A stretch of DNA of 64,000 nt from the NCBI RefSeq assembly GCF_010093595.1, contig NW_022985461.1, positions 1-64,000 of the forward strand. The letters run 5' to 3'. The first letter of the stretch is position 1, and the number at the start of each line of letters is the position of its first letter. The notes beneath the pieces are model-generated. The model was not told the DNA's origin and did no database searches. It saw only the letters and a list, made by a program, of their open reading frames with translations. This document shows positions 34,892 through 56,941 of the stretch, piece by piece. Source of the stretch: Mytilinidion resinicola. Taxonomy: Eukaryota > Ascomycota > Dothideomycetes > Mytilinidiales > Mytilinidiaceae. Both the position numbers and the translations under genes were made by a program.

Positions 34892-36792
34892 ATGTCGTTC
34901 GGAGGCCAAACACCCACTATTATAGTGTTGAAGGAAGGTTAGTTTTCACTCTGCGCTGCCTAGAACAAAACATCACCCGATGCTAACTGCTCTACAGGGA
35001 CCGACCAGGCCCAAGGGAGGGGACAAATAATATCGAATATTAATGCTTGCCTTGCTGTGCAGGAAACAATCAAAAGCACGCTGGGACCATATGGCGGGGA
35101 TCTACTTCTAGTTGATGAGAATGGCAAGCAGACTATTACGAATGATGGCGCCACGGTTATGAAGGCAAGCACTGCGACCTTCGTTGTTTATGTACCTAAG
35201 TTCTAATTCAGTCTGCAGCTTCTGGACATCGTCCACCCGGCCGCTCGAATCCTCACAGACATCGCCCGTTCTCAAGATGCAGAAGTTGGTGACGGCACGA
35301 CATCGGTTGTGGTATTGGCCGGAGAGATCCTTAAGGAGATAAAAGAGTTTGTCGAGCAGGGTGTCAGCAGCCAGACAATCATCAAGGGCTTAAGACGAGC
35401 TTCGCACATGGCTGTCAACAAAATCAAGGAGATTGCTGTGGACACAGCGGAGTCCAACCAGAGAGAGACCCTTCAAAAGCTTGCTGCGACGGCTATGAGC
35501 AGCAAGCTGATCAACAGGAATTCCGGCTTCTTCACGAAAAGTAAACCACTCTACCTGTCTCCATAAGCTGATCAGATTGCTAACGTCTGCGCGCCAAAAA
35601 CAGTGGTGGTAGACGCTGTACTGTCTCTTGACCAAGACGACCTGAACGAGAAACTCATCGGTATCAAGAAGATTACCGGCGGTGCGCTACAGGACTCGCT
35701 GTTCGTGAACGGTGTAGCTTTCAAGAAGACCTTCTCCTATGCCGGATTCGAGCAGCAACCGAAGTCTTTCAAGGACCCGAAGATCGTATGTCTCAACGTG
35801 GAGCTAGAGCTTAAGAGTGAGAAGGACAATGCGGAAGTCAGGGTGGAACAAGTTTCAGAATACCAGGCTATCGTGGATGCAGAGTGGCAGATCATCTTTA
35901 ACAAGATGGAGGCTCTGTACAAGACTGGTGCAAAGGTCGTCCTCAGCAAACTGCCAATCGGCGATCTCGCCACGCAATACTTTGCCGATCGGGATGTGTT
36001 CTGCGCCGGACGTGTCGCATCCGATGATCTGGAGCGGGTTTGCCAAGCAACAGGAGCCAGCATTCAATCAACTTGCTCAGATATCCAGGCCAAACACCTC
36101 GGTACCTGCGAGCGTTTTGAGGAGCGCCAAATTGGTGGTGAGCGCTTCAACTTCTTTGAGGGATGCCCTGCCGCAAAGACCTGTACGCTAGTGCTGCGCG
36201 GCGGCGCAGAGCAGTTCATTGCAGAGGTTGAGCGAAGTCTGCACGACGCCATCATGATCGTCAAGCGTGCGATCAAGAACAAGAACATTGTCGCTGGTGG
36301 TGGTGCCTGTGAGATGGAGATCTCTTTCTACCTACATCAGTTCGCGAACGTCAACATCCCACACAAGCAGCAGGCTATCATCAAAGCATTTGCGAAAGCG
36401 CTTGAGGTGATCCCGCGACAGCTATGCGACAACGCAGGATTTGATGCCACGGATATCCTCAACAAGCTCCGGTTCGCACACAAGCAACACAACACGTGGG
36501 CCGGTGTTGACTTTGTCCACGAGGGCGTTGCCAACAACATGGAGAAATTTGTCTGGGAACCTAGTCTGGTGAAGGTTAATGCCATCCAGGCAGCGACTGA
36601 AGCGGCTTGCCTGATCTTGAGCGTGGATGAGACGATAAGTCCGTAAAACATACTCCCACCTATAATTCTCGTGCTAACTCAGTCTTAGAGAACCAAGAGT
36701 CACAACAACCGCAAGCGCCACAGAGAGGTCTTCCGCCCGGGGCGGCGCAGCGAGCTCTGAGAGGTCGTGGGCGTGGCATGCCCCGGAGGTAA
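34892..36792 (+). CDS. CCT7: T-complex protein 1 subunit eta, cytosolic chaperonin CCT
   Basis: Five exons (34892-34937, 34998-35164, 35219-35540, 35604-36638, 36689-36792) give 557 codons plus stop, the expected length for CCT eta. The protein starts [15 protein letters not shown]. It carries the group II chaperonin nucleotide-site motifs NDGAT and [13 protein letters not shown], the eta-typical [11 protein letters not shown] and [18 protein letters not shown]-like ATP-domain sequence, and a C-terminal [10 protein letters not shown] tail. It is one of eight subunits of the CCT/TRiC ring that folds actin and tubulin in the cytosol. The intron 35165-35218 begins GCAAGC (GC-AG type); splicing there is fixed by the conserved [17 protein letters not shown]. 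No damage is seen. Confidence 0.97.
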
Positions 36793-55240: not shown

Positions 55241-56732
55241 ATTTGCGTGCGAGCAGGTGGTCGGATGGCACACTGGCTGGAGCGATTGTAAAACAGCATT
55301 TGTTGAATGTGACTATATCAATCTTTTGATTGAGTCTTAGCTGGAGATGCCGCGGGATGAGTGACTTGCGGTGTGTGCTTGTTATTGGGGATGAAATGAC
55401 CCAATGGCGTTCCCTTCTAATCTGTATTCACGCGTGTGCCATCGTTGGTCGGGAATTGGCTGTCCCTGTTGCTCCCTGGAAATTATACAGCGGTTTGTAT
55501 CAGGTCTTGAAAGGATCTACAGTGCATCGGCATAAGTCTATTACACTAATTACCCACCGCTTGAGATGCTCAGCCTACTTTCCAAAACACATCAGTTTAC
55601 GTGAGCTCTGCCCCTTCTTTTAAGTGGTAGCATTCGACCGTATGGGCGGCCTAAAGAGTCATCAGACTCGTCGAAGGACTGAAGTTAGGTTTCGTCTATA
55701 TCCACGGGCTCAGACCTCTAGATATACTGATTATGAAGTTGCGTTATTTCATCAAAAGCAAGGACTAGAGCCAGTATGGGCGTCCGAAATTCATCAGACC
55801 GCTTCAGCATCGAGGTTTAGTGTCGATCAGGCGATTGCTCTCTGGTTTGTATGTTGATGTAGACCTCATCTTTGGATTCTTTTTGCGTGTCCGACACCAA
55901 ATCTCGGCATGGGAGGAGAGTTGAGAGCAGTCGACAAAAGGTCGTATAGAGTTTAAAGAAGGAATCTGCATCACTTGAGATATGGAGAACCCTGCGCATT
56001 TCCGACCTGTTTACTCTGTTTAGTAATAGGCAATCGCTCTTGGTGTGCATCTTTCTAGAAGAAATGCCTGCCATAATGCGAGGGCTTGAATGGGTTGGAC
56101 TGCGGAGGATAGGGAACTTTATTGTGGAAGAGGAGAGTGCCGTAGGTAAGAGTCTGATGATGGTTTGGAACGAGCGAGAGGATAATCTTGGATCGAGGTA
56201 AAGGGCGGGGGAAAGTGACTACGGGTCCGAGTCGGTAGAAACCCTATTTATTTGTACATGTATTGAGGTGCTCTAAAACGCTCATTATTCTATCCAAGAT
56301 AGATAACAATCTAGTAAGGCTCACAGTAACCAGACAATGAGAACTCTATGAGGTGCTCTAAATGAGCAGAAGGCGACTACACGCGACTAGTGATCTAATC
56401 GCCTGCAGTAGTTACTGTCGGAAGAAGGTTATTAAGAAAGTTAATACGGTCAGAATAATGCTATTTTTAGCAACTTGACTTGGCGCATGTCGGGTCTACA
56501 CTTTTGGAAGTGTAGAAAGAGGTTAAGAGGATAGTCATGGGAGAGACTGGAGGCAGAATGTATATATTCGAGAGGGGATAGACTAGCGACTAAGACGCGC
56601 TAGGATGAAGGTGAGGAGAAGAGATGGTTGTCTCGGTTGGGCTGGTGTTCGTATTGAGGCTCGCGGAGAAACCCGACGTATCGATTTCACTTACTGTATA
56701 GTTTGAAAAAATTTGCCAGCGTCCATCAAACA
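55241..56732. other. Intergenic, about 1.5 kb
   Basis: No gene or repeat was recognised. The small frames on both strands have no family resemblance. The right end is the 5' flank of the tRNA gene. Confidence 0.35.
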
Positions 56733-56762
56733 GGCACTTTGGCGGAGTGGTTAACGCGCGGG

Positions 56763-56811
56763 GTATGCATCACCTCCAGGTCATCCACACTTCTCATACT
56801 AACAGTACTAG
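56763..56811 (+). other. Intron 1 of tRNA-Ser, 49 nt, between positions about 30 and 31
   Basis: It starts GTATGC, has ATACTAACA (branch-point-like) near 56796-56804 and ends TACTAG. It interrupts the 5' strand of the anticodon stem, not the standard site next to the anticodon (37/38). Confidence 0.75.
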
Positions 56812-56832
56812 CCTGCTAAGCCCGTTCCTTCG

Positions 56833-56882
56833 GTACGACTTCCCAAAGCTTGATGTTTGATCAGGTCACTAACAATCCTCAG
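56833..56882 (+). other. Intron 2 of tRNA-Ser, 50 nt, in the variable arm
   Basis: It starts GTACGA, has TCACTAACA near 56867-56875 and ends CCTCAG. It interrupts the loop of the variable arm. Its sequence is unlike intron 1 apart from the splice signals. Confidence 0.75.
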
Positions 56883-56926
56883 GGAGCCTGGGTTCGATCC
56901 CCAGAGGTGTCGTAAGATATTCCATA

Positions 56927-56941
56927 TTTTTGATCTTTTTT
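56927..56941 (+). terminator. RNA polymerase III terminator of the tRNA gene
   Basis: Runs of five T (56927-56931) and six T (56936-56941) begin 15 bp after the tRNA 3' end, as expected for Pol III termination. Confidence 0.75.

Follow-up and report, generated by a model that had tools for sequence, protein, structure and literature searches.

Spliceosomal-type introns in nuclear tRNA genes of the fungus Mytilinidion resinicola

Results

The window, a stretch of 64,000 nucleotides from the 47-Mb genome of Mytilinidion resinicola (a Dothideomycete of the order Mytilinidiales), contains an interrupted serine tRNA locus. Joining positions 56733-56762, 56812-56832 and 56883-56912 gives an 81-nt molecule that ARAGORN calls tRNA-Ser(GCT). 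Once both intervening pieces are removed, the cloverleaf is complete, with a long variable arm and a GCU anticodon, and the acceptor (G-U pairs included), D, anticodon and T stems all pair. The locus is composed of the following features:

56697..56700, forward strand: TATA-like element, about 36 nt before the first nucleotide of the mature tRNA (read from the sequence)
56733..56762, forward strand: exon 1 of tRNA-Ser(GCU), comprising the acceptor 5' strand, the D arm and anticodon-stem nucleotides 27-30
56740..56750, forward strand: A box TGGCGGAGTGG, unbroken in the DNA (read from the sequence)
56763..56811, forward strand: putative intron 1, 49 nt, GTATGC...CTAAC...TACTAG, between nucleotides 30 and 31 (placed by a removal scan)
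56799..56803, forward strand: branch-site motif CTAAC of intron 1, 9 nt before its end
56812..56832, forward strand: exon 2, comprising nucleotide 31, the anticodon loop CTGCTAA, the 3' anticodon stem and the 5' half of the variable arm
56815..56817, forward strand: anticodon GCT
56833..56882, forward strand: putative intron 2, 50 nt, GTACGA...CTAAC...CCTCAG, in the variable-arm loop (placed by its signals and by the variable arm of the Ser(AGA) gene L125)
56869..56873, forward strand: branch-site motif CTAAC of intron 2, 10 nt before its end
56883..56912, forward strand: exon 3, comprising the remaining variable arm, the T arm, the acceptor 3' strand and the discriminator G
56891..56901, forward strand: B box GGTTCGATCCC, unbroken in the DNA
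56927..56931, forward strand: T5 run, candidate Pol III terminator (read from the sequence)
56936..56941, forward strand: T6 run, candidate Pol III terminator (read from the sequence)

The sequence-only reading of this locus had described a GT start, a CTAAC box about 10 nt before the end and an AG end in both pieces, and all of these are seen, with CTAAC 9 and 10 nt from the respective ends. Neither piece occupies position 37/38, the site of the canonical nuclear tRNA intron; they lie at 30/31 and in the variable arm. ARAGORN and Rfam at gathering scores reported no tRNA in the whole window. With introns allowed, ARAGORN read the unspliced locus as Val(AAC) with a 104-nt intron, and Rfam at E-values up to 10 gave no tRNA between 56600 and 57050; the sole loose Rfam match, mascRNA-menRNA (56852-56911), was rejected at 19.4 bits against a cut-off of 42.5. 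One result counts against the locus: at its energy minimum, the spliced RNA without modifications does not fold into the cloverleaf (z -0.98).

The removal scan evaluated all pairs of 35-70 nt deletions without requiring splice signals (1,217,412 pairs, giving 724,741 distinct products). The top score, 81.0, was shared by 89 products, 88 of which remove 56763-56811 or a one-base slide of it; three points below the top, intron 1 is used by 109 of 199 products. Because structure by itself nearly fixes intron 1, its GT-AG ends are an independent result. GT-AG at both introns occurs in a single one of the 89 top products, the one that removes 56763-56811 and 56833-56882. Intron 2, by contrast, is not fixed by structure, since the variable arm may vary freely. 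The placement of intron 2 rests instead on its GT, CTAAC and CAG and on the variable arm restored by its removal. That arm, TTCCTTCGGGAGC, which had been said to be rebuilt in this way, is indeed the arm of Ser(AGA) L125 (13 of 13 nt), and it agrees with that of Ser(GCU) L116 at 12 of 13 nt.

For a comparison with shuffled sequences, the real locus was scored at 71.0 after the intron penalty. When the 5' 26 and 3' 25 nt were kept, 0 of 300 shuffles reached 71 (best 68.0; 6 of 300 at 65 or more), and when the upstream 305 nt were shuffled, none of 300 scored as high as 60, the best being 55.5. The possibility that these removals fold no better than shuffled ones, raised in the sequence-only reading as fatal to the structure, is therefore contradicted by the shuffles, and the removal scan agrees.

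As a yardstick for mRNA introns we used four introns of one gene, CCT7, a small sample, whose protein (P0121) maps exactly to the window:

34938..34997, forward strand: CCT7 mRNA intron 1, 60 nt, GT-AG, CTAAC (exact P0121 mapping)
35165..35218, forward strand: CCT7 mRNA intron 2, 54 nt, GC-AG, CTAAT (P0121 mapping)
35541..35603, forward strand: CCT7 mRNA intron 3, 63 nt, GT-AG, CTAAC about 20 nt before the end (P0121 mapping)
36639..36688, forward strand: CCT7 mRNA intron 4, 50 nt, GT-AG, CTAAC (P0121 mapping)

Judged against this one gene, the tRNA introns appear to fit the class of its mRNA introns in length and signals. The earlier statement that mRNA introns of the window are of equal length to the tRNA introns is roughly right: one is 50 nt long, but the others measure 54, 60 and 63 nt. 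A strong-motif intron scan of the window found 26 matches (both tRNA introns included) against 21-33 in five shuffles; because its matches were no more numerous than in shuffles, it was dropped and CCT7 was mapped instead. Serine codons of the CCT7 coding sequence include AGC/AGT in 11 of 28 cases, and to our knowledge AGC/AGU codons are read by Ser(GCU) only.

We surveyed the genome by B-box and Rfam searches, and part of the tRNA-like places were fetched and read (L followed by a number labels a locus). The survey is a sample and not exhaustive. It comprises 57 clear tRNA genes: 30 without a spliceosomal intron (score at least 67), nine above the Rfam cut-off that the B-box scan missed (L138, L139, L140, L143, L147, L148, L150, L151 and L152), and 18 intron-bearing genes, namely 17 curated genes (L115 included) and L158. 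The decayed L159 was left out, and the tRNA-like loci L092, L107, L113 and L142/L153 stand outside the counts, as do another two stretches within L146.

The window locus is not one odd gene; interruption of this kind is a feature of many tRNA genes in the M. resinicola genome. Overall, 23 spliceosomal-type introns were found in 18 of the 57 surveyed genes (one perhaps decayed):

Two introns each: Ser(GCU) of the window, Leu(CAA) L012, Thr(TGT) L089, Ile(TAT) L123, Leu(AAG) L124
One intron each: Gly(GCC) L091, Ala(TGC) L093, Asp(GTC) L094 and L104, Val(CAC) L110, Leu(TAA) L115 (perhaps decayed), Ser(GCU) L116, Arg(CCG) L119, Ser(AGA) L125, Ile(AAT) L133, Arg(ACG) L137 and L158, Arg(TCT) L149

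These introns are 49-57 nt long and lie in the D, anticodon, variable and T arms, at sites ranging from nucleotide 10/11 (L093) to 55/56 (L158). Twenty have GT-AG ends, two GA-AG and one GC-AG, with AG in 23 of 23. The donors are GTAAG (12), GTATG (4), other GT (4), GA (2) and GC (1), and the acceptors CAG (10), TAG (9), AAG (3) and GAG (1) (n = 23 in both cases). In 22 of 23 introns (mean in shuffles 2.2) a branch-site motif lies 9-14 nt from the 3' end, although all these signal counts are partly built in, because the scan demanded GT or GC, AG and a looser motif (YTNAY) over a wider range (6-32 nt from the end). Intron 2 of L089 shows no clear branch motif.

Manual placement or adjustment was applied to the introns of L115, L123, L124, L149 and L158 and to the donors in L116 and L125. 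For the latter two genes the scan itself selected GT donors lying 3 nt downstream, whose use would leave four extra nucleotides in the T loop; the GA donor is preferred because it restores the T arm. The T-stem intron site with this donor (CAG|GAAAGT) is common to Ser(GCU) L116 and Ser(AGA) L125, and the intron interiors have diverged. Both are candidates for GA-AG splicing in a fungus; GA-AG introns with an upstream AG and a downstream A are reported from two animals (PMC7072748).

After splicing, cloverleaf scores reach 72-82 in 14 of 17 genes, 68 in L115 and 58 in the two Asp genes, in which the canonical intron was misplaced in scoring; unsplit tRNA genes score 67-80 in the same survey. 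L012 has a T.T mismatch in the anticodon stem. Of 26 other tRNA genes examined, 24 have the canonical 37/38 intron, seemingly a high share, and so do 12 of the 18 genes with spliceosomal-type introns, the other six being without it. Spliceosomal-type introns occur in decayed copies too (L159, perhaps L115): the Leu tRNA relatives L115 (C24) and L159 (C18:447690-447950) carry a similar D-loop intron, the arms of L159 are decayed, and L115 has mismatches and a TTTTT in its intron.

Evidence independent of the splice signals comes from paralogues, since copies lacking the intron exist for three isoacceptors, Gly, Ile and Asp. Gly(GCC) L091, with the intron, and L020, with no spliceosomal intron, are identical in mature sequence, and the L091 intron is therefore a precise insertion relative to L020. 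Similarly, Ile(AAT) L133 differs from L132, which has no spliceosomal intron, at 1 of 74 mature nucleotides. The two intron-bearing Asp genes, L094 and L104, are identical in mature sequence, and their introns have diverged except for GTAAGC, CATGCTAACGGATGTT and CAG. Selection for the spliced tRNA and for the splice signals would produce such a pattern; a weaker alternative is that the Asp exons underwent recent gene conversion. Arg(ACG) L137 and L158 carry introns at different T-arm sites and share 65 of 72 mature nucleotides. By our reading of the alignment, the base pairs 3:70, 5:68 and 49:65 account for six of the seven differences. These paired changes keep stems across the introns, and they may predate them. 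In several genes the intron ends do seem to restore letters of the A or B box, but this observation was set aside as drawn from a biased sample, because the survey searched mainly by B box.

Intact, intron-free Ser(GCU) genes elsewhere in the genome, together with a lack of spliced reads from this locus, would, according to the sequence-only reading, speak for a pseudogene in the window. No such gene was found by pattern and BLAST searches of the genome, although these have gaps. The spliced 81-mer matched its own exons only. A D-arm-to-anticodon pattern, which misses genes with canonical introns, gave 17 matches (control 12); none of the 17 gave a tRNA in the survey scan. An anticodon-to-T-arm pattern, which allows canonical introns of up to about 25 nt, gave 67 matches (control 132), all of which were checked (3 + 64). 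Five T-stem pairs (G-U included) were present in 2 of the 64, about chance level: L168 and L194, the latter with TTTTT between anticodon and T arm. These searches could have overlooked a Ser(GCU) gene whose canonical intron is longer or whose T loop is unusual. The one other Ser(GCU) gene found, L116, has an ordinary 37/38 intron in addition to its T-stem intron with the GA donor.

A further BLAST search, with ten joined spliced tRNAs and informative for close copies only, gave no unsplit match over the full length of Ser(GCU) L116, Ser(AGA), Ala(TGC), Val(CAC), Arg(CCG), Ile(TAT), Arg(ACG) or Arg(TCT). It recovered the own loci of nine of the ten queries, and missed both the Thr(TGT) L089 locus and the diverged intact Thr(TGT) gene L146.

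Other small RNA genes were also noted. Four full-length U6 snRNA genes recognized by Rfam (L128, L130, L031 and L034) have no intron; each has a TATATA-like element upstream and, after a T run, a downstream B box, GGTTCGA. Two U5 snRNA genes, L127 and L129 (Rfam 60.1 and 62.2 bits), are laid out like Pol III genes, with TATATA upstream, a T run and a B box on the downstream side; U5 is usually transcribed by Pol II. A multicopy family (L098, L100, L103, L105, L111 and L122) has a TATATATTTC-like sequence, a common core around ACTAACCAGCAGGAA...TTGCCC, a T run and a downstream B box. No Rfam family matched its members L100, L103 and L111, and the family is possibly a new Pol III RNA.

Discussion

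The observed sequence and structure, the splice signals, their recurrence, and the paralogues with and without introns lead us to regard the window locus as very probably a working nuclear tRNA-Ser(GCU) gene with two U2-type spliceosomal introns, which the spliceosome would remove after Pol III transcription. Because the A and B boxes are unbroken and T runs lie downstream, we infer that Pol III probably transcribes the gene from these internal boxes and would stop at the T runs. The splice signals are likewise our grounds for inferring actual splicing and the machine that performs it: the spliceosome would recognize GT, CTAAC and AG and release both introns as lariats, and the resulting 81-nt tRNA would then undergo the usual end-processing.

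Across the genome, spliceosomal introns would have entered about one third of the surveyed tRNA genes, beside ordinary 37/38 introns, which are presumably still removed by the tRNA endonuclease. The ordinary splicing route is probably present, because 37/38 introns occur in 24 of the 26 genes checked and the genome has two loci with the endonuclease domain PF01974. Dependence on the spliceosome was one of three options that the sequence-only reading had offered, and it is the one supported by recurrence, as 18 genes share the splice signals. Since this recurrence is joined by Gly, Ile and Asp copies without the introns, the spliceosomal reading is strongly supported.

A related explanation is that Pol II reads the split tRNA genes, alone or within longer transcripts, which are then spliced like mRNAs. 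It is compatible with spliceosomal introns and differs in the polymerase alone, and for this reason its odds overlap those of Pol III transcription followed by spliceosomal removal; we consider Pol II transcription unlikely. Splicing is usually coupled to Pol II, and some introns fall within the A box region (L093, L119 and L123) or split the B box (L158, at 55/56). Two introns also hold T runs (TTTT in L149, TTTTT in L115), and the depletion of TTTT expected if Pol III reads through the introns was not significant (2 of 22, shuffled mean 2.5). However, the window locus has an A box, a B box and downstream T runs, and a T4 or longer run starts no more than 15 nt downstream in 15 of the 17 curated genes, the two Asp genes having T4 further on. 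That U6 is called a Pol III RNA in a published abstract also weighs against a need for Pol II. TATA at -55 to -21 shows no clear difference between intron-bearing (11 of 16) and other tRNA genes (15 of 26), counted where 60 nt of upstream sequence was available.

It is improbable, in our judgement, that the introns sit in dead copies, disused tRNA genes whose work is done by intact isoacceptors elsewhere. Decayed relatives do exist (L159, perhaps L115), some of the intron-bearing genes have counterparts free of spliceosomal introns (Gly L020, Ile L132, Asp L025, Leu(CAA) L138, Leu(AAG) L005 and Thr(TGT) L146), and the searches for intact copies are gappy, with the L089 locus and Thr(TGT) L146 missed by BLAST. 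This explanation is nevertheless weakened because the pattern and BLAST searches found no intron-free Ser(GCU) and because the second Ser(GCU), L116, is split too and needs a non-canonical removal. Eight of the joined BLAST queries, L116 among them, likewise gave no full-length unsplit match among close copies, the spliced cloverleaves of 14 of the 17 genes score in the range of unsplit genes or above (72-82 vs 67-80), and the Asp exons are identical while their introns have diverged.

The tRNA splicing endonuclease is not known to need uniform length, GT donors, CTAAY motifs or AG ends. That this enzyme or a relative cuts the non-canonical sites, as in archaea, red algae and nucleomorphs, with GT-AG coincidental or secondary, is very improbable: the two PF01974 loci and the canonical introns would fit it, as would the non-canonical tRNA introns described for Cyanidioschyzon and nucleomorphs (PMC4090602), but the uniform length and shared signals argue against it, and the bulge-helix-bulge (two 3-nt bulges at the cut sites, flanking a 4-bp helix) is not supported, with the full central helix in 0 of 23 introns and 3 bp in 4 of 23 (random 0.3 and 2.1).

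Our literature search, with subscription papers and preprints mostly outside it, found no report of spliceosomal introns in tRNA genes, in keeping with the earlier remark that no well-described nuclear precedent was known; U6 and U3 are precedents among small RNAs. As far as this search shows, what is new is tRNA genes as hosts, spliceosomal introns themselves being known. Canzler and others have reportedly studied U6 introns. According to PMC5832005, frequent interruption was known among small structured RNAs for U3 and U6 only, and fission yeast U6 carries an mRNA-type intron (PMC10484740). Fungal U6 snRNA and U3 snoRNA genes hold spliceosomal introns within small structured RNAs, as we propose for the genes described here, but the present introns interrupt tRNA genes of many isoacceptors, at scattered positions and up to twice per gene.

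Canonical nuclear tRNA introns (37/38, endonuclease) also interrupt tRNA genes and are present in the same genome, whereas the introns considered here lie elsewhere, with spliceosomal signals and uniform length. Eukaryotic tRNA genes are described as limited to one intron in PMC8450103. Nuclear tRNA introns are treated as endonuclease substrates in PMC4090602, with nucleomorphs and Cyanidioschyzon merolae as exceptions. Removal of nuclear tRNA introns is generally ascribed to the tRNA splicing endonuclease together with a ligase. The introns of archaea, C. merolae and nucleomorphs resemble those described here in sites such as 30/31 and 53/54 and in occurring several per gene (PMC4090602), but those of archaea and C. 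merolae depend on the bulge-helix-bulge, whose full central helix is absent from all 23 introns here, and those of the Guillardia nucleomorph are 3-24 nt long, against 49-57 nt.

Introner-like elements of Dothideomycetes (PMC4457414) are a case of spliceosomal intron gain in the same fungal class. They are near-identical copies, whereas the tRNA introns are mostly dissimilar. An introner family among the tRNA introns was considered and is not supported: in 231 pairs among 22 introns, z was 7.4 for the Asp pair, 4.9 for L104/L115, 3.8 for L133/L149 and lower for the rest.

If the spliceosomal reading is true, the spliceosome can process pre-tRNAs as a routine step, and intron gain is not confined to mRNA genes. 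tRNA annotation can miss such genes, as the window gene went unreported by ARAGORN and Rfam. Insertions with intron-free paralogues would in turn be a clean record of spliceosomal intron gain. The sequences suggest that in M. resinicola the mRNA splicing machine is also needed for making tRNAs. We consider it reasonably likely that spliceosomal introns have spread through the nuclear tRNA set as a second, parallel pathway, with rare GA-AG introns in Ser tRNAs, and that the decoding of some codons, AGC/AGU above all, would be wholly dependent on the spliceosome via Pol III pre-tRNAs.
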